This document shows, one piece after another, positions 2,120 through 33,929 of a stretch of DNA of 34,206 nt. This DNA is from Gammaproteobacteria bacterium (GTDB lineage: Bacteria; Pseudomonadota; Gammaproteobacteria; GCA-001735895): assembly GCA_024225395.1 (NCBI GenBank), contig JAAEMR010000155.1, positions 1-34,206 on the forward strand. The letters run 5' to 3'. A program made the position numbers and the translations under genes. How positions within the stretch are numbered: position 1 is the first letter of the stretch; every line of letters begins with the position of its first letter. The notes under the pieces are model-generated. The model made no database searches. It had not been told where the DNA came from and saw only the letters and a program-made list of their open reading frames with translations.

Positions 2120-2203
2120 GAATCAGCTCCTGAATATCTGTTCGAAACTAAGGCAAAAGAATATTGGCCTCTTCTGTGAAGAAGAGGCCAGACTAATCAC
2201 TGT

Positions 2204-3355
2204 TTACGCGTCATGAACGTAATATTTTCCCCGAGTATTGGCAGCTTCCAGTAGCTTATCGAATTTAGCCATCGATCCAGCCAGATCCTTTTTATAGGTA
2301 TCCCACTCAGCATTTTGATGTCCACCTTTCTTCACCCACTGAGCCAGCTCATCACTGGTAGGGGTATAGAATTGAACCCCTGTTTTACTCATTTCAGCCA
2401 TCGCGTAGGCTCGAGCAGCAGGTACTTTTGATAGATTCTGGTGTGACGTTACCTCACTCGCATATTCAATACCTTCTCGAATCGCTAATGGCAGACTGTT
2501 AAACCATTCCAGGTTGCAGGAATAAACCTGTGAATCAGGAACTGCTTTTGTAAAAGTAACCCAGGAAAGGATGTCCTTAAATCCAAACACATTTAATGCA
2601 CCAACTGAAGGATCAAGTGCATCTGCAACCCCCTGTTTTATTGCCGAAGGTGTTTCTCCCCATGCCACGGGAGTTGGGTTGGCACCAATCGAACGATAAT
2701 ACTGCTGTAACATTTTGGAACCCGGCACCCTGAACTTGATACCCGCAAGATCATCAGGTGTTTTGATCGGTCCATTACCACCTTTACGTAGCGCAACCAC
2801 TCGAGGGTCGATCACTGTATACCACAGGGGTTTAAAACCTTTGGCTTCAACCAGAGGGTGGACTGTATTGCGCCAGGTATCAGAATTGACCAGGTTAACG
2901 AAGTTTTGATTTGCGCCGCAAAAATAAGGCAGATTGATCAAATCAATCGCAGAAGCGAAAGGTGCAAAATTGGAAAGAGAATGCTGCGCCGCCTGGATAG
3001 TACCCTGCTGCACTTTTTGAACCAGCGCACCACCGGCACCCAGTTGACCACCCGGAGCCAGTTTTACATAGACCTGACCATTGGTCATATTCTGGATGTT
3101 TTCTTTAAAATCCAGCTGCATAATGGGATAACTACGTGTAGCTCCTAAAACATAGGCAGTCGCAATCGTCATTTTATATTTTGCTGCTTTCGCACGTGAA
3201 CGTTCTTCTTTGGCAGTTGCTGCAGCAGCTTCTTCACTAAACAGTAAACTACCAGCAGCGCCTGCTACTACTGCTGCGGTAAATCCATACTTCGCACTGA
3301 TTTCAAAAAACCGACGACGTTCGATATTACTTGGTGTATCTGAATCATGTTTCAT
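2204..3355 (-). CDS. dctP: TRAP transporter substrate-binding protein (DctP family) with Tat signal, probable DHPS/sulfolactate binder
   Basis: The frame is open to 3451, but the start is placed at the ATG ending at 3355: it has a good GAGGAG ribosome site and gives a 383-residue protein with an export signal. Residues 12-17 read ERRRFF, a twin-arginine motif, followed by a hydrophobic alanine/glycine stretch and a cleavage region near residue 47. The mature part has DctP features: the GGQLGAGGALVQKVQQGTIQAA segment, IKTPDDLAGIKFRVPGSKM, and the region GETPSAIKQGVADALD. The protein captures substrate in the periplasm and delivers it to the DctQM pair encoded downstream. The substrate is inferred from suyAB and the hpsN-like gene. 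Confidence 0.85.
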   Translation of the reverse strand: MKHDSDTPSNIERRRFFEISAKYGFTAAVVAGAAGSLLFSEEAAAATAKEERSRAKAAKYKMTIATAYVLGATRSYPIMQLDFKENIQNMTNGQVYVKLAPGGQLGAGGALVQKVQQGTIQAAQHSLSNFAPFASAIDLINLPYFCGANQNFVNLVNSDTWRNTVHPLVEAKGFKPLWYTVIDPRVVALRKGGNGPIKTPDDLAGIKFRVPGSKMLQQYYRSIGANPTPVAWGETPSAIKQGVADALDPSVGALNVFGFKDILSWVTFTKAVPDSQVYSCNLEWFNSLPLAIREGIEYASEVTSHQNLSKVPAARAYAMAEMSKTGVQFYTPTSDELAQWVKKGGHQNAEWDTYKKDLAGSMAKFDKLLEAANTRGKYYVHDA

Positions 3356-7363: not shown

Positions 7364-9754
7364 ATGATCTCCAGTAAGAAGAATAGAGAATACTCGTCAA
7401 TATCAAGGCGACTAATCCTATACATTGTACTTTGCAGCTCAGCCTTAACACTCCTCCTTACGGCATTTCAACTTTATCGTGATTATCAAACAGATATCGA
7501 CCAAATAGAAGAGGCCTTCGATAGTATAGAAAGGGTTCATATTGCTACTGTATCAGAAAGTTTATGGGGTTCGGATTTAGATAATTTGGAAACAATTGTT
7601 CGAGGGATGTCGAACCTGCGAGACTTGAGTTACATTGAAATTATGGAGGAGGATGACATTCTGATTAAGTTTGGTAGGCTGCCAAAAAATGAGAGTAAGT
7701 CAAAAACTTTCCCTCTTTTATATGATCAACTCGGAAACACAAAGGAAATCGGAAAATTGAAAGTTGTTTTTGACCTCAGTACAGTCAATCAACGTCTATT
7801 GGATCGTATATTTATTATTTTAGGAAGTAATACCTTAAAAACTGGATTGGTTATAATATTTACTATTCTGATCTTTCGTCAACTAATAGCTAGACATTTA
7901 GACCAAATCTCCGAATACCTGCTACGTCTAAAAGTTGGGAAGAAAAATAAACTCTTAGCACTAAATCGCCAGTTTACCAAACCTACCGACAAGGATGAAC
8001 TGGATTTGGTAGTAGATTCTATAAACAAGTTCTTAGGTTACAACGAGGACTATGTAATCGAGCTTGAACAAAAGCATCGAGAATTGTTTACCCAGGGTCA
8101 AATTATTTCAAATATGCTGGAAGGTGCATGTCTAATTCGGGCGAGTGACGCCACGATTCTGTACACCAACCCTGCTTTTGACAATATGTTTGGATATCAG
8201 GAAGGAGAGTTGATTGGAAAGCAGGTTTCAATTCTAAATGCCCCAACTGATATTAGTCCATTTGAACTATCAGACAGCATTCACAAAGATCTTCAGGCTC
8301 ATGGGTTTTGGAAAAATGATATCTGCAATATTAAAAAAGATGGAACTAAATTTTGGTGCTCACTACATATATCTGAGTTCAGCCATCTTGTTTATGGAAA
8401 AGTATGGGTTTCTATCAATACTGACATTACTGATAGAAAAAAAATGGACGCAAAGCTCAGCTATCAGGCAAGCCACGATGCCTTAACGGGGCTTATCAGT
8501 CGCTATGAGTTTGAACTGCGCGTAACACGATTACTTTCCCACCTTTCGAAAGAGCAATCTATACATGCAATGTGCTTCCTCGATCTTGACCAGTTCAAGG
8601 TGATCAATGATACCTGTGGTCATGCAGCAGGCGACGAATTGTTACGTCAATTAGGCAGATTATTACAAAAGACGATTAGGAAACGAGATACACTGGCCCG
8701 GCTCGGTGGTGATGAATTTGGTGTATTGATGGAACATTGTACCCTTGAGCAAGCACATCGCGTTGCCGATGATATTCTTAAGGCAGTTATGGACTATCAA
8801 TTTTCCTGGGACGGTAGTGTATTTCGTATAGGTGTCAGTATAGGTCTGGTAGCGATTACGCAAACCAGTGGCAATTTTACGGATTTGCTCAAGCAGGCTG
8901 ATGCAGCTTGTTATCTTGCCAAGGATCTGGGGAGAAATCGTATTCATACGTATCACCCGGATGATACCGAACTGGCAGTTCGACATGGGGAAATGCAGTG
9001 GGTAGGACGTATTAATCAGGCTTTAGATGAGAATTGGTTATGCCTGTATGCTCAGCCCATCATATCACTCAATGGTGGTGGTCGCAGGCATTATGAATTG
9101 TTGCTCAGGATGCTGGATAAAAATGGGAATATTATCCCGCCCGGCGCATTTTTACCCGCCGCTGAAAGATATAACCTTATTGAGAAGCTGGATGCCTGGG
9201 TGGTTAGTCATGCTTGTACATCACTGGCGGAACACCCTGCTTTTATTGATCAGATAGACTTTATTTCGGTCAATTTGTCCGGTCCTTCACTCACCAATCA
9301 GGATTTTTTGGAATCCATATTGCTTATTTTCAAGGAAACCGGCGTCTCACCAGAGAAAATTTGCTTTGAGGTAACCGAAACAGTAGCAGTTTCGAACCTT
9401 AATCCGGCTATCAGCTTCATGAAAAATCTAAAAGAAATCGGCTGTCAATTTGCACTTGATGATTTCGGGAGTGGGATATCATCCTTTGGATATCTTAAGA
9501 ATTTGCCTGTTGACTACCTAAAGATTGATGGAATGTTCGTTAAAGACATCGTAGATGACCCTATAGATCTCGCTATGGTTAAGTCGATTAACGAAATTGG
9601 TCAAGTAATGGGTATGAAAACCATAGCTGAATTTGTCGAAAATGATGATATCAAGATGATGCTTAAAGCCATTGGAGTTAACTATGGTCAAGGCTATGGT
9701 TTGGGTAAGCCTGAACCACTTATAGGTTTAATCACTCAATTCAATGAAACTTAA
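7364..9754 (+). CDS. Membrane-bound PAS-GGDEF-EAL cyclic-di-GMP enzyme
   Basis: The 796-residue protein has a membrane span at about 17-37, a periplasmic sensor of about 115 residues with the ESLWGSDLDNLETIV pattern of CHASE-like domains, a second span at about 152-172, a PAS domain (about 245-358, ending ITDRKK), a GGDEF domain and an EAL domain. The GGDEF motif (448-452) is intact and preceded by an RxxD inhibitory site (439-442), suggesting product-inhibited diguanylate cyclase activity. The EAL motif is ELL (578-580) but the metal and catalytic positions look kept: SVNLSG, EVTET, LDDFGSG, LKIDG, AEFVEN and GQGYGLGKP. Either or both activities may be live. The ATG follows an AGGA ribosome site. 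Confidence 0.9.
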   Translation: MISSKKNREYSSISRRLILYIVLCSSALTLLLTAFQLYRDYQTDIDQIEEAFDSIERVHIATVSESLWGSDLDNLETIVRGMSNLRDLSYIEIMEEDDILIKFGRLPKNESKSKTFPLLYDQLGNTKEIGKLKVVFDLSTVNQRLLDRIFIILGSNTLKTGLVIIFTILIFRQLIARHLDQISEYLLRLKVGKKNKLLALNRQFTKPTDKDELDLVVDSINKFLGYNEDYVIELEQKHRELFTQGQIISNMLEGACLIRASDATILYTNPAFDNMFGYQEGELIGKQVSILNAPTDISPFELSDSIHKDLQAHGFWKNDICNIKKDGTKFWCSLHISEFSHLVYGKVWVSINTDITDRKKMDAKLSYQASHDALTGLISRYEFELRVTRLLSHLSKEQSIHAMCFLDLDQFKVINDTCGHAAGDELLRQLGRLLQKTIRKRDTLARLGGDEFGVLMEHCTLEQAHRVADDILKAVMDYQFSWDGSVFRIGVSIGLVAITQTSGNFTDLLKQADAACYLAKDLGRNRIHTYHPDDTELAVRHGEMQWVGRINQALDENWLCLYAQPIISLNGGGRRHYELLLRMLDKNGNIIPPGAFLPAAERYNLIEKLDAWVVSHACTSLAEHPAFIDQIDFISVNLSGPSLTNQDFLESILLIFKETGVSPEKICFEVTETVAVSNLNPAISFMKNLKEIGCQFALDDFGSGISSFGYLKNLPVDYLKIDGMFVKDIVDDPIDLAMVKSINEIGQVMGMKTIAEFVENDDIKMMLKAIGVNYGQGYGLGKPEPLIGLITQFNET

Positions 9755-9911
9755 CTACTGTAAATGCCAGGTTCACGCACATAACCAGGATTAGAGAAGG
9801 TAATTGGATTCATATGAGATAAAGGTCAGCGTCCCCCTCTATCCGCAGTGCCTGATAAATGAGCGGCAATTCTTATTGATGCTTTTACCAACAGTCCATC
9901 CCATGTACTAA

Positions 9912-9928
9912 ATTGATTATAAATCAAT
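9912..9928. promoter_or_regulatory. Inverted repeat upstream of the second GGDEF-EAL gene
   Basis: ATTGATT and AATCAAT flank ATA, giving a 17-base inverted repeat 60 bases before the start at 9988. It may be an operator; a TATACT sequence at 9947-9952 could be the -10. No -35 at normal spacing was found. Confidence 0.3.
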
Positions 9929-9987
9929 GTCTGTCGGGATTTTGTCTATACTAAGAGTATTAAATCATCCTAAATTTAAAGTTTGTA

Positions 9988-11943
9988 ATGCCCGAAATTA
10001 TTTCCTCTAATAATGACGACAGGAAGTTACCAGAAAGAATTTTCGTGGAACGCTTAAAGCTCTATTACCAGTCTCTTAAACAATCTGTTCTGGCGGTTCT
10101 GGTTAACAGCACCATTTTGCTGGGACTCCTGTGGAATGACATTGAGAGAAGCCATCTTCTAGGCTGGTATTCTTTTGCACTTATAGTCACCATTTACCGC
10201 ATTATTGTCTGGTGGCAGTTTAACCGGATAGAAAAATCTCGCTACGAAGAGCGTCAATGGTACCTGCATATGCTGATTGGAAGCATATTATCCGGTTTAA
10301 TCTGGGGGGGGGCCGGCTATTTTCTATTCTCAGATAACATCTTCTATCAGGCTTTGCTGGCTTTCATCATTGCTGGTATGAGTGCTGGTGGTATTATAAA
10401 TCTATCTTCTTTTCTGGAATCTTCCCTATCATTTCTGGTACTGGTCATCCTGCCATTTTTGATCAGGCTGTTACAGGAGGGAAGCACAGAGGCTCTGCAA
10501 ATGGGTTTCATGGTATTTCTTTATTTGTTATTAATTTCAGTTTCAGCCCGTCGCGTTCATCAAACGGTGCTGAATGGCTTAACAATGAAATTTATGTATC
10601 AAAGGGCAGAAAGTAAAATCAAGGAACAAGCGTTATATGATGAATTAACGCAGCTTCCGAATCGAAGATTACTTAAAGACCGCATGCTCCATGCTCTGGC
10701 CAGAGCACAAAGATCAAATATTAAAGGAGCTTTACTATTCCTTGACCTGGATAACTTTAAAAGAATCAACGATACCCTGGGGCATATATTTGGAGATGGC
10801 TTGTTACAACAGGTCGCGACACGGTTGAATCAGCATATACGTACAGGAGACACTGCAGCAAGACTTGGAGGTGACGAATTTGTTGTTTTGCTGACTGACT
10901 TGAGTGGTAGTTCAGCCGAAATCGCACAGAATGTTCAGTTAATCGCTGATAAAATCCGTCAGGCCTTAGAGGTACCTTTTAAAGTTCAGAACCATGAATT
11001 GCATGTCACCTCGAGCATTGGGGTATCACTTTTCCCAGATGACAGTCATAGTGTGGATGATTTGTTAAAACATGCAGATACTGCGATGTATCAAGCCAAA
11101 AATTTGGGCAAAAATGCAGTACACTTTTTCCTTAAAGATATGCAGGACTCACTCAACAAACGACTAGAACTGGAAAAAGCTTTACATAAAGCGATAAAAA
11201 ATGAAGAGTTTAGGTTGTATTTCCAACCCCTGGTCGAACTGAATGGAACTATTTTTGGTGGAGAGGCACTTATACGCTGGTTTAAGGATGATGAACAGAT
11301 GGTACCTCCAGACGAATTTATTCCGATAGCTGAGGAAACTGGCCTGATTTATCTGATTGGAGACTGGGTATTGAACCAGACATGCCATTGCATGAGTGAG
11401 ATATCCAAACTTAACCTGCCGAATGACTTCAAATATCTTTCTATGAATGTTAGCCCTCAAGAATTTAACCAGAAAGATTTTGCTATTCGGATTGAACAGG
11501 CATTGAAAAAAAATGCTTTGTCGGGTAGATACCTGGAAATAGAGGTTACAGAAAATCTGCTATTGGATGACGTCTCTGGCACCGTTCAAAAAATGGAAAA
11601 ATTACGCGAAATGGGTATCAGTTTTTCTATTGATGATTTTGGCACAGGATATTCTTCGTTGGCTTATTTGAAAAAATTGCCTGTGGACTCTCTGAAGATT
11701 GATCGTTCATTTGTCCAGGATGTATTATCGGATAATAACGATGCAACCATCGTCAAAACGATCCTTTCCATGTCCCATATGCTGGGATTGAAAGTCATAG
11801 CGGAAGGAGTAGAAAATAAGGATACGTGGAGATTTCTGGAGCAACATGGCTGTCAGTTTTTCCAGGGATACTTAATTGGCAAGCCTATGCCCTTTGAAGA
11901 ATTTATGATTAAGTTAAAAAATGGTTCAGTATTTGAACCTTAA
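9988..11943 (+). CDS. Six-span membrane GGDEF-EAL cyclic-di-GMP enzyme
   Basis: The 651-residue protein begins with a membrane sensor of about six spans (roughly residues 33-50, 58-76, 92-114, 118-141, 147-162 and 170-186), resembling the MASE-type integral sensors. The GGDEF motif at 294-298 is intact with an RxxD site at 285-288. The EAL motif is intact (426-428), with MNVSP, EVTEN, IDDFGTGYSS, LKIDRSFV, AEGVEN and FFQGYLIGKP following. Both synthesis and breakdown of cyclic-di-GMP are plausible. It follows another GGDEF-EAL gene after 233 bases, so it is probably transcribed separately. A run of nine guanines (10304-10312) lies in the sensor-coding part. Confidence 0.9.
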   Translation: MPEIISSNNDDRKLPERIFVERLKLYYQSLKQSVLAVLVNSTILLGLLWNDIERSHLLGWYSFALIVTIYRIIVWWQFNRIEKSRYEERQWYLHMLIGSILSGLIWGGAGYFLFSDNIFYQALLAFIIAGMSAGGIINLSSFLESSLSFLVLVILPFLIRLLQEGSTEALQMGFMVFLYLLLISVSARRVHQTVLNGLTMKFMYQRAESKIKEQALYDELTQLPNRRLLKDRMLHALARAQRSNIKGALLFLDLDNFKRINDTLGHIFGDGLLQQVATRLNQHIRTGDTAARLGGDEFVVLLTDLSGSSAEIAQNVQLIADKIRQALEVPFKVQNHELHVTSSIGVSLFPDDSHSVDDLLKHADTAMYQAKNLGKNAVHFFLKDMQDSLNKRLELEKALHKAIKNEEFRLYFQPLVELNGTIFGGEALIRWFKDDEQMVPPDEFIPIAEETGLIYLIGDWVLNQTCHCMSEISKLNLPNDFKYLSMNVSPQEFNQKDFAIRIEQALKKNALSGRYLEIEVTENLLLDDVSGTVQKMEKLREMGISFSIDDFGTGYSSLAYLKKLPVDSLKIDRSFVQDVLSDNNDATIVKTILSMSHMLGLKVIAEGVENKDTWRFLEQHGCQFFQGYLIGKPMPFEEFMIKLKNGSVFEP

Positions 11944-21735: not shown

Positions 21736-22782
21736 TTATTGCAATAAAAGCTTGTGAGTTCGATCAGAAAAATAAACTCCCCAGTTTTTTTCTGCTTTTT
21801 GCATGGGGTTTTTCCCATCAAAACCACCTTTCCATAGTTCATCGAAGGCTGCAAAATAAAACGATACAATGTTTTCATTATTAACCCACCGGTTATATTC
21901 ATCAAAGAATCGTTTCTGCTGTTGTTCGCTGGCTTTACCGATAAGACCACCTTCATGACTGTCGTCATAAACCCTGCTGGTGGGCCATCCAGTCTCCGTA
22001 TAAGCAATCAGATGATCAGGATAAAGTTTCTGGATATCCTGGTAGGTTGATTCAGTCCAGTCCATTGCGACATCCATCGTTTTATTATTCCAGAACGCAT
22101 AAGCGTGTAATCCGATAAAATCAATTTCATCTGCAATATTACTAGCATGCGGTTTATTCCAGAAATTATAATCATCGCACACGGTTATCGGCTGATGTAT
22201 TTTGGAACGTGCCTTTCTGATATAGATGATAACCTGATCCAGGTCTGAAATTTTGTGCCACGACCAGTCAACAAAAATTTCATTACCAATGTTTACTGCG
22301 ACGATGATTTCAGGAAACTCCTTTGCCATCGCTATCACTTTATCGACCTGGGCAGCATTCTGCTGGGGCGAGTAATGCCCTGAAAGCCAGGCTCCCTGCA
22401 TGACCCTGATGGGTAATTTGTTATCTCTAATCACCTCAAGTACTCGCTGACTTTGTTGATCAGCTCCATACAATCTAATTAAATTCCATCTATTAGTGAT
22501 CAATTTCAAGTCTTCAAGAATATTAATCTTTGAAGTGAGACTGTCTTTATCCGGGCTTTCTCCATCACGATAAGGACTGTAGGAAATTCCATTACCAACC
22601 CATTTTCCATTAATTTCCGGGCTAAATTCTCTCTTCAGGAATTGTCCGGGCGGGTTATCGTCGTCATCAGAGGCATTGAGCTGTGTTGTGCTGCAGGCAA
22701 TCAGGCAAAACAATACCGTCAGTTTAATCAATGACAACAATCGATCAACAGAATTTAATTTAATCACCAAATAATAGCTCAT
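21736..22782 (-). CDS. GH17 beta-1,3-glucanase-type lipoprotein
   Basis: The 348-residue protein begins with a lipoprotein signal ending LIAC, with the lipid cysteine at residue 30 followed by serine, which favours outer-membrane sorting. The mature part is a GH17 TIM barrel: NIRLYG-like segment NLIRLYGADQ, the acid/base glutamate E168 in VNIGNE, IGLHAYAFW, and the nucleophile E263 in AYTETGWPT. GH17 enzymes cleave or transglycosylate beta-1,3-glucans; this short form resembles the exo-/endo-beta-1,3-glucanase group COG5309. Its start codon lies 23 bases inside the end of the phosphorylase gene, so the two are translationally linked. It is the last gene of the leftward glucan locus. Confidence 0.85.
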   Translation of the reverse strand: MSYYLVIKLNSVDRLLSLIKLTVLFCLIACSTTQLNASDDDDNPPGQFLKREFSPEINGKWVGNGISYSPYRDGESPDKDSLTSKINILEDLKLITNRWNLIRLYGADQQSQRVLEVIRDNKLPIRVMQGAWLSGHYSPQQNAAQVDKVIAMAKEFPEIIVAVNIGNEIFVDWSWHKISDLDQVIIYIRKARSKIHQPITVCDDYNFWNKPHASNIADEIDFIGLHAYAFWNNKTMDVAMDWTESTYQDIQKLYPDHLIAYTETGWPTSRVYDDSHEGGLIGKASEQQQKRFFDEYNRWVNNENIVSFYFAAFDELWKGGFDGKNPMQKAEKNWGVYFSDRTHKLLLQ

Positions 22783-25700
22783 TATTCAGCGTTAATGTTA
22801 ATTGCCGGATTTGTCCACTACGCTTGAATAGCTCCACACTATATTCGGCTGGTAATATTAAACTGTCAACATTCTGTTGACTGCCGTCTTCCCAGGTAAT
22901 AGATAAACCGGGCTCCATTCCATCTTTCAGTTGATAAACCAGCGGAACCTGGCACCAGCTAAATGCTAAACTTGAGATGGGCAAGGTTAAACTCTGCCAC
23001 TTCCCGAAAACATCTAGATATGTGAATGACCGGGAAAGTTCAATAAATTCCCGCCTACGTAAAAGATATGGTTCAAAACTGACTGCTCCACCATTGACGC
23101 GAATACCCAGTTCTCCAAATCGTGTGAGTATTTCTTCTTTAACCTGGCCTGTCATCCCTGGTTGTCTGGCTCCGGCATGTTTGGGCGTATGTGAGTACGG
23201 ATCAGTAGGAAATGCACCGTATTCTATCGGTTCTTTATTGAAACCTATGCCTTTACGCACCCTGTAGTAGAATTGACCAAGGCGCTTACAAATTGCTTCC
23301 TCCGCATTCTGATCCAATGCATTAAAAAAGTTTTCCTGTACGGCAAGCAATAGCTTTGACACCATATGCCAGTAAATACAACCAAGCCCTTCAAATCCAA
23401 ACATTCCTCCGGATCTTCCGGTAAACTCCTTATGGTTAAATACCTGTTCATATAGAGCATGTATTTCTAGACGTGACTGATCAATATCATCACTGTAAAT
23501 AGCCTTAAGCTTATCCAACCTGACTTCCAACTCATTGCGATTAATTATTTCAGCATTAAAACGATAGTTACCATCGACATCTTGTAACAATATAGATTTA
23601 TCATCATCTGCAAGCAGTTGCGAAAGAAATGGAATAAGTAAAATTTGATTTTCGGGTATACAGTTTTTATCGAGAAAACCAAGTTGCTTTCTATCAGGAT
23701 ACAGCAAAAAACTGTGTTGATCTGGGCGGTACAAATCACTTTTATATAATTCTTCTAGTATCGTCATGGCTTGATTGGGAGCAATAGCACCAGAACTCAA
23801 TACAGCCACCTGCCCTTCAAGCATTGGATACAGATGAGAAAGCTTAATTTCATCTTGTTTTAGGCTCAATAAGTTATAAGCATGATAAAGACCATGATCC
23901 TGCTGGTTATTTTCGATGCTGTGATCAACGGCTACCAAAGCATCCTGTAACAGGTTTTTTATTACATCGATTTTAAGAGGCGTCAAACCTTTGAATGAAT
24001 GTTGACTATAAACTGTCTGGCGGTATCGACTGGCTGCTTCACCAAGCTCAAGCAATACTTTATAACGTTGAGCACCGTTTAGTTTTTGTTCATTCAGAAG
24101 TGGTCTTGCTCGAGCTAAACAGGCTGATGTCTCTTCCAGCCATATAACAACCTCTCTTGATAGTGTTATTGATCCAGAGTCAATTTTCAGTAAATCCAGC
24201 AAAAATTGTATATAACGACGCAGGTAGTAAAGAGTAACCATCGACAATCCCTGACCGACCAGGGCATTATTAGCATCATTCCATTCTGGACGCTGAGTAT
24301 TCAGCCAAATACCACCGTCAATTACAAAATTAGAGAGTTTACTGAGTAATGGGACAAGCAGTTTTTCTAACAGGTTGACCTGATATACCGATCCAGCATC
24401 ATCCAGCAGTAATTTACCATCGGCTCCCATGCTATTGACACGCTTCTCTATTATATCGGCGAGTTCGGCATCATAAGTTACTGTATTCTTGGGATTTTCT
24501 AGCAGTAATTCAAATGAATGAACCCTGTAAGGTACATTGGCATAACAGAAAATCGACTGGTGCAATAATTCATCTAAACGATCAGGATGAAACTTCTTTG
24601 ATAGTTCAAGTAATTTAAGCAGGTAGATGATCTGATGATCCCCCCAATAACCAATATAACTCCAGGGGTCATCTGGGTCTTCAATTTCCCAGTCAATGCC
24701 TTCTTTGGTAACACGATAAGGATTAAATCCATCAATAGTGCTCGCATTAACAAATTTCGCGATAATATTTTCGATAAATTGCGGGTAACTAAGTACCAGA
24801 GCTTCCCAGTTCTGAAATATGTCTCGCCAGTTACCCTGATAAGAAAGTAACGGGTTTCCATTTTCATCTTTTAGCTTAATGGCAAACTCATTCCAGGGTC
24901 TACTGGGATCTCCATGACGCCTTCCGAATGTGATGGGTAAATATTCATAGCAAAGACTTTCTAACCTGACATCATTCACCTTCCTGATCTCGGATAAAAG
25001 ATCCTCATGAGCTATTTGTTCAGGTAACTCAGACAGCATTTGTTGATGCCGGTGAAAAACTGCATGATTAAAATGCGCTAAAGTAGCAGAAAAATCACGC
25101 GTACCGACTAAATACTGATCGTAAAAAATACCACCACGCAAAGTATTAAACAATACATTGGCATAATGATGAAGACTTACATTTTCTTCAGCTGTCGTCT
25201 GAAAACCATCGGCAGATGCTATGATACGTGCCAATGTATCTGAACCTTTATCTATTGACAGTGCAACATCCCTGGCAACTTCATCGGATTGGAGCAATGA
25301 CTGCCTTAACTTTACAATCTGCTCCTGAGTCTGTTCTACATTTGCAACAAATTGCCATTTTTTTTGAGCGAGTGGTGCCATTTCAAAATTCTCATGAATT
25401 AAGTAAGCACCACGGATACCCCGCTTATTTTCCTCCTGCTGAACAGGCTCACCAAGGCGAAAATCTTCAAGTTGCTGTGAGGAAATCAATGTTTTATGGT
25501 CTTTAAGGCCTAAACAGAAAACTGTATTTGCTTTCAGTGACTCACAGGGTTCTGGCCGGTCAGTAATCCCGGAATAAAGAGAGAAAAATGCTATTCCAGA
25601 ATCTTGATCAAGTTCTGACCATTTATAAGCATCTATCAGATTACTTGAGTTAGTTTGAATGAAACGTGGAGTACCTGCAGGAAGTATGTTCTGTAAACCA

Positions 25701-26203
25701 TCAATCATTTCGATTTTTACAGCATTATCCGACTGGTTTTGAAGTTCACATTGACGAATGAATCCATATTTATCGCAACTCATCCAGGTATAACGGAAAA
25801 CCAGATTCAGGTCATGGTTAACCTCTTCAAAACACAACTTGTTTCCATACTGGTTTTTATAAAGATGCCGGTTGATATGAAACCGACCATCACTCTCCAT
25901 GTTAAAAGGCTCCCATTCAAATTCACATCCATCCGCATACACACGTAACAGGGTTTTACTTCCTGTATGAGCAGAACTTTCATGAATCTTATCTACGGTG
26001 ACATATGGAAATAAAGCTGTCTCAGGGGATACTCTTCCCGCTGTCAACCCACCATTAGAAGAAACAAACAGCCAATGATCACTCGCTGAAACGACACTAA
26101 TAAAAAATGGAGTCAGTTTGTCAACATTGTGAATGACATAAAAACGTTCACCCTGGTGATCGATAAATTCACCAGATATTTCATTACTGTTGTTTATTTT
26201 CAT
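22760..26203 (-). CDS. Cytoplasmic beta-1,3-glucan/oligoglucan phosphorylase (GH149 or GH161 type)
   Basis: The start is placed at the ATG ending at 26203 (1147 residues); a TTG at 26251 would add 16 residues. There is no signal peptide. The protein resembles the large GH94-related phosphorylases: an N-terminal beta-sandwich (about 1-290), a linker helix region and an (alpha/alpha)6 barrel. Visible landmarks are FGRRHGDPSRPWNEF, YQGNWRDIFQNWEAL, VNASTIDGFNPYR, IGYWGDHQIIYLLKLLE and RPEWNDANNALVGQG, whose aspartate (about residue 643) corresponds to the catalytic acid of GH94 enzymes. Lengths above 1100 residues and the GH17/GH30 context favour GH149, which converts beta-1,3-oligoglucans and phosphate to glucose-1-phosphate; GH161 is the alternative. 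Confidence 0.75.
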   Translation of the reverse strand: MKINNSNEISGEFIDHQGERFYVIHNVDKLTPFFISVVSASDHWLFVSSNGGLTAGRVSPETALFPYVTVDKIHESSAHTGSKTLLRVYADGCEFEWEPFNMESDGRFHINRHLYKNQYGNKLCFEEVNHDLNLVFRYTWMSCDKYGFIRQCELQNQSDNAVKIEMIDGLQNILPAGTPRFIQTNSSNLIDAYKWSELDQDSGIAFFSLYSGITDRPEPCESLKANTVFCLGLKDHKTLISSQQLEDFRLGEPVQQEENKRGIRGAYLIHENFEMAPLAQKKWQFVANVEQTQEQIVKLRQSLLQSDEVARDVALSIDKGSDTLARIIASADGFQTTAEENVSLHHYANVLFNTLRGGIFYDQYLVGTRDFSATLAHFNHAVFHRHQQMLSELPEQIAHEDLLSEIRKVNDVRLESLCYEYLPITFGRRHGDPSRPWNEFAIKLKDENGNPLLSYQGNWRDIFQNWEALVLSYPQFIENIIAKFVNASTIDGFNPYRVTKEGIDWEIEDPDDPWSYIGYWGDHQIIYLLKLLELSKKFHPDRLDELLHQSIFCYANVPYRVHSFELLLENPKNTVTYDAELADIIEKRVNSMGADGKLLLDDAGSVYQVNLLEKLLVPLLSKLSNFVIDGGIWLNTQRPEWNDANNALVGQGLSMVTLYYLRRYIQFLLDLLKIDSGSITLSREVVIWLEETSACLARARPLLNEQKLNGAQRYKVLLELGEAASRYRQTVYSQHSFKGLTPLKIDVIKNLLQDALVAVDHSIENNQQDHGLYHAYNLLSLKQDEIKLSHLYPMLEGQVAVLSSGAIAPNQAMTILEELYKSDLYRPDQHSFLLYPDRKQLGFLDKNCIPENQILLIPFLSQLLADDDKSILLQDVDGNYRFNAEIINRNELEVRLDKLKAIYSDDIDQSRLEIHALYEQVFNHKEFTGRSGGMFGFEGLGCIYWHMVSKLLLAVQENFFNALDQNAEEAICKRLGQFYYRVRKGIGFNKEPIEYGAFPTDPYSHTPKHAGARQPGMTGQVKEEILTRFGELGIRVNGGAVSFEPYLLRRREFIELSRSFTYLDVFGKWQSLTLPISSLAFSWCQVPLVYQLKDGMEPGLSITWEDGSQQNVDSLILPAEYSVELFKRSGQIRQLTLTLNNELLFGD

Positions 26204-26309
26204 ATCCACAGTTTTCACCAGTTTACTTTCTGCCTTAAGTGCTATAACCAACCTGTAATGAAGCTTTACTGGTTAGTATCCAACCAGAATATCACTATAA
26301 AAAAATCAA

Positions 26310-27014
26310 TTAATTAGGAATTATGTCACCAGTTTCACTTTCGAAGGTATAGCCCCATTCACCTATGGCTTCCAGTGCAGCTAACTCTGATGCAAATAAT
26401 GGGCTGAGAGGAAACTGGGATGTACTGTCTCTTAGAGGATTATCTCCATCACCGTCATCCCATAAGTTATCAACACTTAATAGCCTAACTTTCTTTGGCC
26501 ATAAATACAGCGTGGGTGTAGCAGGTGGCGCGGGATATTTAAAAAACCATACATCATCATAGTAATTATCCAAAACTGAACGGTAAGCCTTTAATGCCTG
26601 TTCTCGTGCTAATTCACTACCGCTTTCAGAATACATACCTTGTAATGCGAGAGCGACATGATATTGATTTTCACCTCTAGGACTCATGGCCTGCGCGGTC
26701 GCCCACATGTAGAAACGTGCCTTCCATGATGGAGCGTCATCACTTAGATCCCATTTGGTAGTATCATTAACAGGTGTTATTGCATAAGGATTTTCAGGAT
26801 CATCCAGAATGCAGGACTCTCCTCCTATACCGGCATCCGGACAATAAAGTGTCAACGCACTATCAGTGGGCAAATTGAAACTATTGACAACTTCGCCATC
26901 ATTTTCATCAACTTCACCACAAGCCATGAGCGTCACCAAAAATACGCTAACAATCATGAATTGCCAGATTCTGGCAACCGGGAAGAGTGTATTATCTGTA
27001 TCTGAATTTCTCAT
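26310..27014 (-). CDS. Lipoprotein of unknown function in the glucan locus
   Basis: The start is placed at the ATG ending at 27014, preceded by GAGGTG; a GTG nine bases upstream overlaps that ribosome site. The 234-residue protein has a hydrophobic signal ending LMAC, so it is probably lipidated on the following mature cysteine. The rest shows an acidic linker, a cysteine pair (YCPDAGIGGESC), a helical region rich in alanine (YHVALALQGMYSESGSELAR) and PAPPATPTLYLWPKK. I do not recognise the family. It lies 27 bases after the glycosidase/beta-barrel gene and 106 bases before the phosphorylase, so it probably works with the surface enzyme. Confidence 0.75.
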   Translation of the reverse strand: MRNSDTDNTLFPVARIWQFMIVSVFLVTLMACGEVDENDGEVVNSFNLPTDSALTLYCPDAGIGGESCILDDPENPYAITPVNDTTKWDLSDDAPSWKARFYMWATAQAMSPRGENQYHVALALQGMYSESGSELAREQALKAYRSVLDNYYDDVWFFKYPAPPATPTLYLWPKKVRLLSVDNLWDDGDGDNPLRDSTSQFPLSPLFASELAALEAIGEWGYTFESETGDIIPN

Positions 27015-27041
27015 AATATTCACCTCGACTTATGCTCAAAA

Positions 27042-30000
27042 TTAGAAGATATATTTGAAATAGGTTTGTATTTCGAACATATGGTCATTTTTACCATCCT
27101 CATACTCAGTTGCTGGAGAGAACTCATCCAGTGTTCTGTAAAACACCTTGATTCCCAGACTGCTTGAATTCTTTTCATTCTTATTCATGTCCAGCAACCT
27201 GGTGTATTCCAGCTTATACTGTTCTGGATAGATTAAATTAAACTGGCGGTAAAAGTCATAGGGACCGAAAGCATCTTTTTTGATATGTCCAGAAAGTATA
27301 TGTCTTGAATCGATAACAGCTTTAGCCTCCAGGCTGGTAAATTCAACACTTTCTTCACCTGGTTTACCGGTTGTCTGCTGTCTACCTCTTTGAAGATCAA
27401 GAATATATTTAACTGAATAACCGGTATTAAAGATCATCTTGCTCTTTATCAAATAAACGTCTTCAGCAGACAGACCACTGCCAAATGCGGCATTCGTGTT
27501 AGCTTCCTCATAGAAAAAGCGATCTGAATCTGTAACCGATTCAAACTCGGAGTAAGTTAACCCAAGATTAAAAGCAAATGGTGCATCTTCTATCACATCC
27601 ACATTCCAGTCATAAAAGTAAGATGCCGGGGTAGGATCATAAGTTAAGATAACTTCAGCCGATTTCACCTCTCTGTTACCCAGTACGGCAAAAGGGTCAT
27701 CATCATAATTTCGAGGAGCAATACCTGGATTAAGCGTTGAACCGGTAGTGACTGGATCGATAAGTGGATTGGCATCGACTATATTTTTGCGAACCAGAAA
27801 ACGTGGATAAATTGTAAAATCGCCTGCCGGTATCAGGATACCGCCTTCTATTTCTTTTTTATTGCCCAAGCCTGAATAAGGTAGTTCAGTCCCGTTTTCT
27901 GTCACAACATCTCCGCTATCGGCAACCAGACCGGCATAGTTTAGTGCCATATAAGCTTTAGAAGATAGTACATCAAAAGTCACTCTGGCTCTTATACCCA
28001 GTGTATCTTTACCCTCTATTTCATCGACGATAATATCATTTCCTTCGACGCGATCGTAAGTCTCACCTACTTTTTCACCACTGCTATACAATCCACCCAG
28101 TTCCAGCAAAACACCTTCAGCTATAGGCGTCTTAGCATATAGAGCTGTCTGACGACTCTGTTTATTAGTCGCTTCGGTCGCAGATGATGAACCTTCCTGT
28201 TGTGCAATATCTTCAGAATGAATAAAGGTTAAATCTATTCCATTGACATCAAAATCATATTTAAACATTGCTTTAGGGTTAGCACCCCAATAAATTTCAG
28301 GGCCAAAGACAATAGTCAATCCGTCCATCGCATTTTTGCCTCTGTATTCCACACCATAAGGTGCTTTAGAATTCCAGATATCCTGACCTTCCATATCGGT
28401 TGTTTCTCTCAACAGGCCAAAGAAATCGCCCTTTTCACCCCAGTGATAACGGGGCACATGATAAAACGTCTCCAGCGTAAATTCGTCAGCATCATAAGTC
28501 GCATTAAAGTCATAAATTTCTATGCGTTCACGACCTTCAAGAACTTGTGAACTTCCTGGTGATGTTACAACATCATCATTATCAAAAACCTTTACGGTAA
28601 CCGGTGCCCCTCTATCCCCATACCTGAATTCAAAGTTACTATCTGGCACATTAGCCTGAAGATTTAAAGTGAACTGACCGTTCAGATTTTTGGTGGGTTG
28701 AAAAGCAAAATCCAGGTCCAGCATCTGGCCATCGCTGAATACCAGTCCATTTTCACCATTTTCAGTCACATCACCTTCAAAGCCTTTTACAAAGTACTCA
28801 CCGGTAAACTTACCACCGGTCATCTTGAATTTATCACTCTCCTTTTTTGCACTCTTAAGACGTTCTATTTCACCCTTCATGGAATAGATTTCCATATTCA
28901 GGTTATTTGCAATCTTACTGTTTCCAGTTGAAGACGTTGCGGAAGTTGAGTACGGATCAATACTCCAAATGTCTCTTAATACGTAGTAAGCCATTCTGGG
29001 CTCGGTCGCATAGACTCCCTGGCCATTTATATCACCCAGTCGGGTGATTCCAAACCACTCTTCATTCATGTTATTTTGCCCTTCAACATGGTCAAATTTA
29101 TAACCACCGTTTTCCCATGAAGCTGTGCGATCATGAATATCCAGATTTTCAGTTTGCTTGTACTTCCACCATTCATCCCGCCATTCAAAGACGAAACCAC
29201 CAATGGAGTTACCCTGCTCTCCCCGTCCATAACTCTTTCTATACATCTCCAACCACTGCCCCTTCAGGTAATGGGCCTGACTTTCCTGATCTTCAACAAA
29301 ATCACGAGCATTGAAAGCATCACTGCCAAATTCCATAAACAGGACAGGCTTATCTAATTTCTTTTTAACATCTTCCCATAGAGATACATTATTATCGGGA
29401 TCTTCAAAACTGATGCCTCGATAGGAATTGACGCCTATAACATCCCAATCTTTTCCATATTCCGCTATCAGGTCAATATACTGAATATCACCATTAACGA
29501 TGGTATACAGATGATCAGGAGCGATTTTTTTAGCTGCTGCTATGGTTTCAGCAAAAAGACTATACAGATATCTGGCCTTACCGGTATTTTGCTCACCTTC
29601 AGGCAGATTCTCGATTTCAAAGCTTGACCAGGACAATCCGTAATTACTCTCATTACCAAGAGCAAACATCAGGACCCCGGGAGTATTCATGTATTTTTCA
29701 ACTATTTCGAGGAATTCCGCCTTGAGTATTTCACGTGTCGTCTCATCCTGATAATTCGTATTGGGCACCCAGACACCATTGATTGTTGCACCATATCGCC
29801 CGAATAACGGGTTGATCAGTGTCATAATGTCGTACTGTTGGTAAATATAAGTTACCCATCTGGTTGGTATGTTACTAAAGGCTCGAACCGCATTGACATT
29901 CGCTTCCTTTAACAGGGTAAATTCCTGATCCAGAACCTTTTTTATTAATTCATCAGGCTGTCCCCATAGATTATAAGAGTAATTTTCTCCCCTGGGAGAG

Positions 30001-30191
30001 TACCCCCATACCATACCTTTGACATAAAAATCCTTACCATTGACTTTTAATTTCCACCCATTCTCATCCTTATAGGTAGTGACTTTATCAACTAGTTGAG
30101 CCTGAACTGTTGAAGCTAAAAAAGTAAACAGTAAGACAGAAAAAATAACACCGAATTTTCTTACCGCAACGATATAACTTAGTTTCGCCAT
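27042..30191 (-). CDS. Secreted clan GH-A glycosidase fused to a C-terminal outer-membrane-type beta-barrel
   Basis: The 1049-residue protein has a Sec signal peptide (about 1-31, ending VQA). Residues about 40-410 form a TIM barrel resembling the GH2 C-terminal catalytic domain: FYVKGMVWGYSPRG, LLKEANVNAVRAFSN, the acid/base E181 in FALGNES, VIGVNSYRG and the nucleophile E287 in VLFMEFGSDAFNAR. A short charged helix (about 428-450, MEIYSMKGEIERLKSAKK) follows. Residues about 455-1049 are rich in amphipathic beta-strands with aromatic ends and acidic turns, and the chain ends FEIQTYFKYIF with a terminal phenylalanine, as in outer-membrane beta-barrels. The enzyme is thus probably anchored in the outer membrane. 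Beta-glucan specificity is inferred from neighbours. A GAGGTGG ribosome site precedes the start. Confidence 0.75.
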   Translation of the reverse strand: MAKLSYIVAVRKFGVIFSVLLFTFLASTVQAQLVDKVTTYKDENGWKLKVNGKDFYVKGMVWGYSPRGENYSYNLWGQPDELIKKVLDQEFTLLKEANVNAVRAFSNIPTRWVTYIYQQYDIMTLINPLFGRYGATINGVWVPNTNYQDETTREILKAEFLEIVEKYMNTPGVLMFALGNESNYGLSWSSFEIENLPEGEQNTGKARYLYSLFAETIAAAKKIAPDHLYTIVNGDIQYIDLIAEYGKDWDVIGVNSYRGISFEDPDNNVSLWEDVKKKLDKPVLFMEFGSDAFNARDFVEDQESQAHYLKGQWLEMYRKSYGRGEQGNSIGGFVFEWRDEWWKYKQTENLDIHDRTASWENGGYKFDHVEGQNNMNEEWFGITRLGDINGQGVYATEPRMAYYVLRDIWSIDPYSTSATSSTGNSKIANNLNMEIYSMKGEIERLKSAKKESDKFKMTGGKFTGEYFVKGFEGDVTENGENGLVFSDGQMLDLDFAFQPTKNLNGQFTLNLQANVPDSNFEFRYGDRGAPVTVKVFDNDDVVTSPGSSQVLEGRERIEIYDFNATYDADEFTLETFYHVPRYHWGEKGDFFGLLRETTDMEGQDIWNSKAPYGVEYRGKNAMDGLTIVFGPEIYWGANPKAMFKYDFDVNGIDLTFIHSEDIAQQEGSSSATEATNKQSRQTALYAKTPIAEGVLLELGGLYSSGEKVGETYDRVEGNDIIVDEIEGKDTLGIRARVTFDVLSSKAYMALNYAGLVADSGDVVTENGTELPYSGLGNKKEIEGGILIPAGDFTIYPRFLVRKNIVDANPLIDPVTTGSTLNPGIAPRNYDDDPFAVLGNREVKSAEVILTYDPTPASYFYDWNVDVIEDAPFAFNLGLTYSEFESVTDSDRFFYEEANTNAAFGSGLSAEDVYLIKSKMIFNTGYSVKYILDLQRGRQQTTGKPGEESVEFTSLEAKAVIDSRHILSGHIKKDAFGPYDFYRQFNLIYPEQYKLEYTRLLDMNKNEKNSSSLGIKVFYRTLDEFSPATEYEDGKNDHMFEIQTYFKYIF

Positions 30192-30709: not shown

Positions 30710-32368
30710 TTACGATATTTCACTAAGATCAGCCGGCAGCTGAATTCGTATACTCTGTAAAGAGTTGGCATCGATAGTGACAGCAGCATGTTGATGCCCT
30801 ATCTGCAAGGCATATTCCATAGTCTGTTTTGAGGTGTTCAACACCTGAACAGTTATCTGCTTTTCTGCATTAATCGTTGCGCAGGCATAAATGTCATTCT
30901 GAGCTTCTTCCAGTAAAAACAACTCCGTAAAAACCACTCTGTCTCCGGGACGAATGGTTCGACTAAACTGGGCCAGTACATAAAAAATCGGCGTGTAGTA
31001 AACATAACCGTTTGAAACATCGATCATAATGGGTGCTCCACAATAATTACCGACATGATTGGGACCTCCTCTCCGATCCAGTACAATATTCCAGTCAATC
31101 CAGCCGCAAACCCAGTTATTTAAACTGACAATAATATTACGTGCATATCTATGCACCGGTGCATATAAAGGATGATCATCCACATTGACACCTGGCCATG
31201 GTACGGTATATCCCCAGTCACTGGCATTATCATTCCACCAGAAATCATCATTATCAAACCACCCTGACTCCTTAAATCCTGCAGGATCAAGAACACCCGG
31301 CGGGGCATCATTACCTAAATCATCAATACAGCCTTCGCTATGTATGATTGCGTAATCTGGATACTTTTCATGTACCCGGTTGAATACATCTTCATAGACC
31401 TTGAAAGTACTCTCATACCAGTGTACTGCCGCACCATAAACGTATCTTGCAGTGTCCGCATCGGTGTATATGGTGTCAGCCCAATGTTCAAGCTTATCCC
31501 TGCTATGATCATAGATTAACAACCTGACGTTAGCATTGTCGCTTTGCTGCAACTTTGGCCCCAGGTAGTGCTTGATGAAATCGTTTTGTGATTGAGCAGT
31601 AAAATGCATACTTTCCCACTGCCCGCTATTACCGAGCGGTTCATTAACCGGTGTAATAGCCCAGATATCAATATCCTGTGCTCGATAGGCGTCCAGGTAT
31701 TTGACCAGATATTCCGCAAAAGTTGCCTGGTAGCAGGCTTTGAGAGAGCCACCTGTACCCTGATAATTGTTTGCGGCAGAACCCGGTTGATACCAGTCTT
31801 CTATATCCTTCATCCAAACCGGAGCAGTCCAGGGAGATGCGATGATCCTAAAAGTTTTATCATCCTGTTTGCTCTTTATTTGACAGGCCTGAGTAATCAT
31901 CGGTAGTAGATCAAATGATGGATCCTTTATACCGGGATATTTATTACTGTCAAACCCATCCAGATCCGGTTCAATGCTGAAACACTGTAGGCTCGTATCA
32001 CCAGCAATATGATCTGCATATGTATAGCGCCCTTCAACACAAAAATCACAGGATCCAACAGGAGTTCTCGCGAGAGAGAAATTAGCTCCTTTTTCGGAAA
32101 ATATCTGTTCCATCACTTCAGTTCTTTTATCCACGCTTAAATGGGCCAGAACAAAAGCAGAGGACTCGGTAAATGAAGTCCCTATACCAACAATCGACTG
32201 TTTCAATTTTGCAGGGTCAACATCAATCACATTTCCAGATGCTTCACCTGCAACAAATTTCAGATTAGTGACAGTGGCCAGCCTGTCGCCTTGCTCAGAT
32301 GTTTGCAGAATTTCAATTGAAGAGTCAAGACCATAATTAACCCTTTTATTTCCAAATGATATAGACAT
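30710..32368 (-). CDS. GH30 glycosidase, probably intracellular beta-1,6-glucosidase/glucanase
   Basis: The start is taken as the ATG ending at 32368 (552 residues); a TTG at 32389 is possible, and neither has a good ribosome site. There is no signal peptide. GH30 landmarks are GIGTSFTESSAF near the N-terminus, RIIASPWTAPVWMK, the acid/base E243 in ITPVNEP, the HWYEST segment and the nucleophile E345 in IIHSEGCIDD, followed by NWVCGWIDWNIVLD and a C-terminal beta-domain from about residue 470. GH30 enzymes in marine glucan loci remove beta-1,6-linked glucose branches from laminarin. The cytoplasmic location implies action on imported oligosaccharides. It lies just after the symporter gene, probably one operon. 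Confidence 0.87.
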   Translation of the reverse strand: MSISFGNKRVNYGLDSSIEILQTSEQGDRLATVTNLKFVAGEASGNVIDVDPAKLKQSIVGIGTSFTESSAFVLAHLSVDKRTEVMEQIFSEKGANFSLARTPVGSCDFCVEGRYTYADHIAGDTSLQCFSIEPDLDGFDSNKYPGIKDPSFDLLPMITQACQIKSKQDDKTFRIIASPWTAPVWMKDIEDWYQPGSAANNYQGTGGSLKACYQATFAEYLVKYLDAYRAQDIDIWAITPVNEPLGNSGQWESMHFTAQSQNDFIKHYLGPKLQQSDNANVRLLIYDHSRDKLEHWADTIYTDADTARYVYGAAVHWYESTFKVYEDVFNRVHEKYPDYAIIHSEGCIDDLGNDAPPGVLDPAGFKESGWFDNDDFWWNDNASDWGYTVPWPGVNVDDHPLYAPVHRYARNIIVSLNNWVCGWIDWNIVLDRRGGPNHVGNYCGAPIMIDVSNGYVYYTPIFYVLAQFSRTIRPGDRVVFTELFLLEEAQNDIYACATINAEKQITVQVLNTSKQTMEYALQIGHQHAAVTIDANSLQSIRIQLPADLSEIS

Positions 32369-32396
32369 AGATGCTAATATTAACCTCAATAATTAT

Positions 32397-33929
32397 TTAT
32401 TCAGCCACCGCTTTGCCTCGCCTTTCTTCCAGCTGTCTTCTGACATCATGAGCCATCTCTTCAGTGATTGGAAAAGCGGCAACAGCCCATATCGCTAATG
32501 CGGTTGTTATCATCGGAACCACAACACCAAAGAACCGCATCATAAAGATTGTTTGCTCGGTCTGATTACCATTTAACTCGACATCAAATCCAGTTGAATT
32601 AAGTAAAAAGCCACCGGCGGCCAACGCCAGAGCCATGCCCAGTTTCACCACCCACCAGTAGATCGAACCAAACATTCCTTCACGTCGCTCATTGGTCTGT
32701 AATTCATCTAAATCGCAGACATCCGCAATCATAGATCCCATTAACGTAAATAATCCACCCAGCCCAAATGCCATCAAAGGAGCCGGTAGCAGAAGTAACC
32801 AGGGATAATCGGGGTTATAGCAAACCCATTTCAGCGCATACCCAACCATGGAAACACCCATGGCAATAAAAAATGCTCGTCGTTTACCAAATTTAGTCGA
32901 CATCCAGGTGACCAGAGCAATGACCATAAAGGTCGACACTGCACCCACAGTACCTGACCACCCGGCATACTCGGCGCCGAGTTCGGTATTACCACTAAAT
33001 ACATAATAGATAATGACGTAAAACTGAAAAGACGAAATCAACATAAACCCATTAAATACCAGGAACGTAGCAGCACATAGTTTCATAAAAGGAGCGACCT
33101 TCAGGGTGGTAATGAAACCGTCAAAGAACTCCTTCAAATTCGTTTTTACAACATCCCACATTGACACCTTTTTCTGCCTGGCAGCCTTCTGTTCTTTGGT
33201 CGGTTCCGGGTGAGAAAATCGCTCATGCAAAAATATCGCCGGTAAAATTCCAACACCTATCGCGAGAGCTCCTACTACAATCGCCAGATAAGATGCACCT
33301 TCTACCATATCGGTAAACATCGACGCTTGCATAATAAGTAAAAACCACGGTGCCACAATATAAGCCAGTTGCCCCATAAAATTCTGCACACCCATTAAAC
33401 GCGTACGCTCATGGTAATCAGGAGTTAACTCATAACCTAACGCCACCCAGGGTGTAGCAAATACAGTATAGGCCAGATAAAAAATGATCGAGCCAATCAG
33501 AAAAAACCAGAAATAATAATTCTCCGACATATCACGGGGTAACTGCCAGAGAAGGGCAAAAATAATACCGGCTGAAATCGCACCGATAAAAATATAAGGC
33601 CGACGTCGGCCCCAGCGTGAATGAGTATTATCCGAAATATAGCCCATCAGTGGATCCGTAATGGCATCGGTTAAACGGGGCAAAGCACCCAGCAAACCCA
33701 CCAGTGCAGGATTCATTCCTAAGCCGAGATTTAGAACAATTGCCATACCGCCTATTGCGGCGGCAAGCAGGTTATTGACAAAGGCGCCAAGTCCATAGAT
33801 GATTTTATGGGTGAGGGAAATACGATCTTCGGGTTTGGTTTCGTAATGCTTATGCGCCGCCTGATCATCGGAGTTCATCGATCTCGACATTGAAACGCTT
33901 GAATTTTCTACTACTTCGGTATTATCCAT
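32397..33929 (-). CDS. MFS/GPH-family sugar:cation symporter (MelB-like)
   Basis: The 510-residue protein has about 12 membrane spans. After an N-terminal hydrophilic stretch of about 35 residues come the GPH-family landmarks KIIYGLGAFVNNLL, the cation-site region RLTDAITDPLMGYISDN, SRWGRRRPYI, and a late MIADVCDLDELQTNERREG motif typical of this family. It would import glucose or short beta-glucosides across the inner membrane with a cation. AGAGG precedes the ATG at 33929. It heads the GH30-symporter pair, and the strong upstream terminator separates it from the preceding gene, so a promoter should lie in 33930-33987. Confidence 0.85.
   Translation of the reverse strand: MDNTEVVENSSVSMSRSMNSDDQAAHKHYETKPEDRISLTHKIIYGLGAFVNNLLAAAIGGMAIVLNLGLGMNPALVGLLGALPRLTDAITDPLMGYISDNTHSRWGRRRPYIFIGAISAGIIFALLWQLPRDMSENYYFWFFLIGSIIFYLAYTVFATPWVALGYELTPDYHERTRLMGVQNFMGQLAYIVAPWFLLIMQASMFTDMVEGASYLAIVVGALAIGVGILPAIFLHERFSHPEPTKEQKAARQKKVSMWDVVKTNLKEFFDGFITTLKVAPFMKLCAATFLVFNGFMLISSFQFYVIIYYVFSGNTELGAEYAGWSGTVGAVSTFMVIALVTWMSTKFGKRRAFFIAMGVSMVGYALKWVCYNPDYPWLLLLPAPLMAFGLGGLFTLMGSMIADVCDLDELQTNERREGMFGSIYWWVVKLGMALALAAGGFLLNSTGFDVELNGNQTEQTIFMMRFFGVVVPMITTALAIWAVAAFPITEEMAHDVRRQLEERRGKAVAE

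Follow-up and report, generated by a model that had tools for sequence, protein, structure and literature searches.

We propose, with moderate confidence, that a polypeptide joining a clan GH-A glycoside hydrolase to an outer-membrane β-barrel acts as a TonB-independent β-glucan uptake protein, in which a GH158/GH157-like β-1,3-glucanase at the N-terminus would sit at the periplasmic mouth of a 24-strand pore. The gene lies in a gammaproteobacterial contig (JAAEMR010000155.1), analysed here as a window of 34,206 nucleotides, and is on the minus strand, a point on which the initial annotation was silent. The fusion points to a means by which β-glucan, a glycan of algae and fungi, could be imported and cleaved without the usual energised import machinery. 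Its parts are as follows.

27042..30191, minus strand: GH-barrel fusion gene (1049 aa; full-length homologues known)
30096..30191, minus strand: signal peptide, residues 1-32, ending ...STVQAQ (sequence; hydrophobic helix 2-30 in the model)
28947..30083, minus strand: clan GH-A TIM-barrel domain, residues 37-415, GH157/GH158-like (Pfam, profile and structure matches)
29649..29651, minus strand: E181, predicted acid/base (invariant in 60 homologues; GNE motif aligned with that of BuGH158)
29331..29333, minus strand: E287, predicted nucleophile (invariant in 60 homologues; EFG motif aligned with TEWG of BuGH158)
28830..28946, minus strand: two-helix linker, residues 416-454 (model helices 418-429 and 433-448; sequence variable)
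27045..28829, minus strand: predicted 24-strand outer-membrane β-barrel domain, residues 455-1049, with a C-terminal Phe (AlphaFold2 model, structural matches, loop/turn and dyad statistics)
28359..28460, minus strand: conserved loop, residues 578-611 (HVPRYHWGEKGDFFGLLRETTDMEGQDIWNSKAP), predicted to be extracellular or lumenal (mean conservation 0.76)

Domain architecture of the fusion

The initial annotation had described one polypeptide combining a signal peptide, a GH-A glycosidase and an outer-membrane barrel, and this description holds: the open reading frame occupies exactly the coordinates above, homologues are collinear with it, residues 1-32 form a signal peptide and AlphaFold2 returns a barrel fold. 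A chance open frame, a misassembly and a sequencing or annotation fusion are all ruled out by the presence of the collinear fusion in dozens of independent genomes at 36-87% identity. A Pfam scan of the frame (E 0.01) returned GH2_C alone, which passed its cut-off (residues 48-320, E=1.6e-6), and no match in the C-terminal 600 residues, and the frame had neither an NCBIfam nor a PHROGs match. The full-length model reached a pTM of 0.70; since its fold search reported the hydrolase part alone, the barrel was modelled separately. Trimerisation through a coiled coil in the linker was considered and dropped, as the heptad pattern is not conserved.

Judged by sequence and model, the N-terminal domain is a retaining glycoside hydrolase of clan GH-A, with predicted activity. 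All 60 homologues retain both catalytic glutamates named by the initial annotation, E181 (in the GNE motif) and E287 (in the EFG motif), and equally invariant are R103, N180, N183, N233, D235, N255, Y257, R258, D339, W341, W342, N374, E378 and W379. A profile of the domain searched against the PDB ranks BuGH158 (6PAL, 2.4e-10) best, followed by GH158(Pro) (2.6e-9), with both glutamate motifs aligned; in BuGH158, N136, E137 and E220 are essential and E220 is the nucleophile (PMC7157763). By structure the top match is LaGH157 (Z 28.4 over 318 residues, 3.2 Å), followed by β-glucuronidases and GH158(Pro), the last with Z 27.0, such that GH157 and GH2 are as near as GH158. We therefore call the domain GH157/GH158-like and assign it to no single family. 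The GH158 and GH157 comparators are active on, or were solved with, β-1,3-glucan chains; similarity to GH158 does not establish what the enzyme cuts, and β-1,3-glucan is the presumed substrate.

The isolated C-terminal domain (residues 455-1049, 595 residues) was modelled by AlphaFold2 with 60 sequences at a pLDDT of 88.5 and a pTM of 0.83, and the DSSP string of the model contains 24 long strands closed into a barrel, with none of the stacked β-sandwiches that the initial annotation had named as the competing fold. Almost all Foldseek and VIA-align matches are outer-membrane β-barrels, two late VIA rows being mitochondrial outer-membrane barrels, which rules out a β-sandwich or carbohydrate-binding-module reading of the C-terminus. 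The best structural matches, AlgE (Z 16.5) and OprD-type porins (about 16), cover part of the barrel, while the PapC and FimD ushers align in the same direction over barrel residues 1-602 (Z 13-15; PapC 15.0). Searched by sequence, the barrel matched no solved structure up to E=10, and no viral copy of it was confirmed. The strands are amphipathic, as had been claimed from the sequence, with a mean dyad contrast of 2.42 against 1.57 ± 0.24 for strands shuffled internally (2 of 5000 shuffles as high), and the last residue is Phe. Taking the signal peptide, the amphipathic barrel and the C-terminal aromatic residue together, the C-terminal domain is predicted to be an outer-membrane β-barrel; it appears to represent an unannotated family that falls outside SusC, autotransporters, ushers and any porin family.

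The model also bears on which side of the membrane the enzyme would occupy. Long loops follow the odd strands (mean 22 residues) and short turns the even ones (mean 5.5; Mann-Whitney p=0.0002), and in known outer-membrane proteins the short-turn side is periplasmic. An even number of strands places the N- and C-termini of the barrel on one side, that of the short turns. PapC and FimD ushers have a periplasmic N-terminal domain. The alternation of loops and turns, together with the usher alignment, thus predicts a periplasmic enzyme, held at the mouth of the barrel where ushers would have their N-terminal domain. The initial annotation had instead placed the enzyme on the cell surface with the barrel as its anchor, and this part is disfavoured by the topology; surface exposure would arise only if the chain threaded back through its own barrel, i.e. 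by self-secretion. The most conserved barrel loops, residues 578-611, 633-639 (IYWGANP) and 976-986 (GPYDFYRQFNL), are predicted by the model to sit on the far side or to fold into the lumen. The invariant loop motifs of the barrel are HxxRYHWG, GDFFGL and WGANP, and the short WGANP loop has a conservation of 0.90.

Distribution and descent

The same architecture, which the initial annotation had proposed to seek in other genomes, was found at full length in many phyla. Homologues in the same genus and family share 58-87% identity, and a GTDB-based genome scan yielded 229 relatives; most of the best 80 of these are collinear over residues 1-1049, and the remainder are mainly truncated at contig ends. 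At least eight bacterial phyla contain the fusion. Gammaproteobacterial carriers include Woeseiaceae, Thiotrichaceae and Ectothiorhodospiraceae, and others are found in Mariprofundus, Cloacimonadota, Delongbacteria, Geobacteraceae, Zixibacteria, Eisenbacteria, Spirochaetes, Bacteroidota (Flavobacterium among them) and Myxococcota (Myxococcus, Corallococcus and Pyxidicoccus). Thiomicrorhabdus (L050) and Mariprofundus (L021), which are usually regarded as autotrophs, have both the fusion and a glucan locus. The barrel domain occurs in 34 of 395 Bacteroidota genomes sampled, in reading frames nearly always of 1028-1084 codons and hence fused. Within the window's own class only 4 of 369 sampled genomes were positive, so the distribution is scattered.

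Among 30 genomes from many phyla reached through their loci, the barrel is single and fused in 29, the exception being one spirochaete with extra copies. Pairwise distances of the two domains correlate (r=0.90; Mantel test, 0 of 2000 permutations as high), and a quick tree of the family follows the phyla and has two deep halves. In these sequences, both the correlation and the tree are as would be expected from a single old fusion passed on whole.

Spirochaetes contain the parts in other arrangements. One spirochaete encodes, besides the fusion, two free-standing barrels, each with a signal peptide of its own (L126:3908-5797; L125, about 1079-3169). In L140, 1 bp separates a distant barrel (7671-9458) from the GH lipoprotein that comes next as its own gene (9460-10584), and the same pair is found in L141:10915-13052; these separate lipoproteins also match Pfam GH72 (β-1,3-glucanosyltransferase). 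A third arrangement, in L139:5685-8051, has a member of the small lipoprotein family that neighbours many of the fusions (see below; E=4.4e-28 against the profile of that family) fused ahead of a distant barrel, and nearby are genes for a LacI-type regulator and an unfused GH. Because the parts are split and fused in alternative ways in these genomes, there is good evidence from sequence comparison that the hydrolase, the small lipoprotein and the barrel function together as one working unit. The free hydrolases of the two spirochaete genomes are predicted lipoproteins and could be surface-exposed there, which counts against a periplasmic enzyme.

Genomic context

The neighbours of the fusion in the window include candidate genes for β-glucan degradation and sugar transport.

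26310..27023, minus strand: small helical lipoprotein, lipobox LMAC (sequence; neighbour comparison)
22760..26251, minus strand: GH149 β-1,3-glucan phosphorylase, no signal peptide seen (NCBIfam NF058639, 1733 bits)
21736..22782, minus strand: GH17-like lipoprotein (sub-threshold Pfam match)
30710..32389, minus strand: GH30 β-1,6-glucanase/glucosidase-like protein, no signal peptide seen (Pfam GH30, 2.9e-70; below the cut-off of the NCBIfam endo-1,6-beta-glucanase model)
32397..33929, minus strand: GPH-type MFS sugar symporter of the inner membrane (Pfam MFS_2, 4.9e-63)

Positions 294-21222 of the window hold unrelated genes, namely a galactarate/altronate dehydratase, two TRAP transporters, two GGDEF-EAL proteins, a D-lactate dehydrogenase and LutB-type lactate utilisation.

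At least one of GH16, GH149, GH17, GH30 and GH3 is encoded in 63 of 80 loci. The small lipoprotein is present in 49 of the 80 and is the next same-strand gene 3' of the fusion in 45 of 69, with a median gap of 8 bp. GntR/LacI-type regulators are also encoded near the fusion, and Myxococcota loci add GH1 and ABC importers, the importer genes having been recognised by reading the sequences rather than by a family scan. In several relatives the large upstream gene encodes a GH16 lipoprotein with CBM-like domains, a position that in the window lies beyond the contig end. Many gammaproteobacterial loci, those of Woeseiaceae among them, have a second GH-A protein of about 600 aa after the fusion, this one lacking a barrel (L016:13854-15686, L043:13950-15746 and 18 more).

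As the initial annotation had remarked of SusC, no TonB-dependent receptor is found among the window ORFs scanned, nor was SusD found in the locus. The neighbours of the 80 loci gave no phmmer match to three host receptors used as queries, a search of limited sensitivity, and a Pfam tally of 35 large neighbour ORFs included no TonB receptor among the matches listed (25 of 83 families). In human-gut Bacteroides finegoldii (L148:9937-22903) the operon encodes a DUF6377 protein, the fusion, a Big_2 protein, GH16, a fimbrillin-like protein, a hypothetical protein and BglX, with no SusCD; the fusion is annotated there as 'glycoside hydrolase family 2 TIM barrel-domain containing protein'. Although labelled a plasmid, the record includes valS and rpsA and could be part of a chromosome. 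The Big_2-type lipoprotein beside Bacteroidota fusions differs from the small lipoprotein found elsewhere, a point against the scheme proposed below. Metagenomic work on Woeseiaceae, in the part of the text accessible, describes laminarin loci with GH3, GH16, GH17, GH149 and GH158 and a single SusC gene in seven of them, with no mention there of a barrel fusion (PMC12175321). Given this SusC gene, TonB-independence may not be general.

Proposed function and alternatives

Prediction and comparison provide the fusion, the barrel fold, the invariant catalytic pair, the locus context and the variously split and joined parts; for activity, substrate, membrane side, transport and ratchet, we infer the following scheme. 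Surface lipoprotein laminarinases (GH16 with CBMs, GH17) would cleave laminarin or fungal β-1,3(1,6)-glucan, and the resulting oligosaccharides would traverse the barrel, selected by a gate that the conserved aromatic and charged loops would form. On emergence they would be cut by the fused enzyme, which would so remove the incoming chain, maintaining an inward gradient and making diffusion effectively one-way without TonB, i.e. a ratchet. The neighbouring lipoprotein may assemble at the periplasmic side of the barrel, the GPH symporter (in Myxococcota, an ABC importer) would carry the products inward, and cytoplasmic GH149 and GH30 would complete the degradation. Of the suggestions in the initial annotation, that of cleavage coupled to a pore is still the one we favour, except that the cut would follow entry instead of preceding it.

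Self-secretion would give a different picture, with the barrel as an autotransporter-like translocator, the linker helices spanning the pore and the glucanase displayed outside. Strand 1 is indeed preceded by two linker helices that add up to about 28 residues, the barrel is C-terminal with Phe as its last residue, and glucan loci usually include surface endo-glucanases (PMC7157763). We nevertheless regard this as unlikely, since 24 strands in about 595 residues contrast with the 12 strands of an autotransporter domain, Pfam returns no autotransporter match, the linker sequence is variable, barrels without a passenger exist, and GH16 lipoproteins would already cut at the surface in many loci.

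A barrel that holds the enzyme at the outer membrane, without any glucan transport, would answer a usual need, as lipid anchors for enzymes are common in such loci, and transport through the barrel is itself something that we infer. However, 595 residues with invariant loop motifs exceed what an anchor needs, and free barrels are retained in spirochaetes, making a purely anchoring role quite improbable. Least credible to us is the reverse direction, in which the barrel would export a β-1,3-glucan made by the cell while the hydrolase edits it, as in AlgE/AlgL or BcsC/BcsZ. AlgE is among the top structural matches, and the fusion is carried by Thiomicrorhabdus and Mariprofundus, which are mainly autotrophs, but even their loci contain GH16, GH149 and MFS genes. 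No glycosyltransferase was found among the neighbours scanned, and LacI/GntR-type regulators, sugar symporters and phosphorylases indicate use rather than synthesis.

If uptake with cleavage at the periplasmic exit is the function, the fusion could represent a new class of outer-membrane glycan importer that makes uptake one-way by cutting rather than with TonB energy, is spread across eight or more phyla and serves gut Bacteroides in place of SusCD, a wider claim that we put forward tentatively. Laminarin is among the largest carbon pools processed by marine bacteria, and import of large glycans across the outer membrane is generally held to require TonB-dependent SusC-type receptors; an enzyme-pore fusion conserved in glucan loci would be a different solution, which could account for laminarin use by Gammaproteobacteria having few TonB receptors. 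It also defines a barrel family now recorded in databases just as a 'GH2 TIM barrel' protein.

Comparison with known systems

The kinds of component are known, whereas the literature searched gave us no description of the covalent enzyme-barrel architecture, of a putative nutrient pore with 24 strands or of the barrel family, which lacks annotation. Our searches returned nothing on a GH-porin or GH-barrel fusion; they covered subscription papers and preprints poorly, and a description may exist.

BuGH158 (6PAL), GH158(Pro) and LaGH157 share with the fusion a clan GH-A fold, an aligned catalytic pair and a β-1,3-glucan locus, but are 15-21% identical to it and have no membrane barrel. Among barrels, type V autotransporters likewise place an N-terminal domain before a C-terminal barrel in a single chain, although theirs is a 12-strand family and the barrel of the fusion is much larger, with no Pfam match. 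The PapC and FimD ushers resemble it in having 24 strands (predicted here), in the whole-domain alignment and in an N-terminal domain ahead of strand 1; they differ in function, and the fusion has no sequence similarity to them, no Pfam usher match and no pilus genes among the window ORFs scanned. AlgE, OprD-type porins, LamB/ScrY and chitoporin match the barrel partially in structure and pass sugars or organic acids across the outer membrane, but have 16-18 strands and are enzyme-free.

GluM of Corallococcus, an Oar-type protein, is not known to contain a TIM barrel, which would distinguish it from the fusion. It is similar in being an outer-membrane barrel β-1,6-glucanase of myxobacteria (PMC10800785), which also bear the fusion. 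With no susC/susD pair in the ORFs scanned, the window does not contain a canonical SusCD polysaccharide utilisation locus, and the fusion, unlike SusC and other TonB-dependent receptors, has no plug or TonB_dep_Rec match (Pfam, E 0.01). The SusC/SusD importers, as in the 1,3-glucan locus of B. uniformis (PMC7157763), are nevertheless similar in combining an outer-membrane barrel, a glycan-binding lipoprotein, GH16, GH158 and GH3 enzymes and a regulator in one locus, whereas here enzyme and barrel are united in one polypeptide, with 24 predicted strands against the 22 of SusC.
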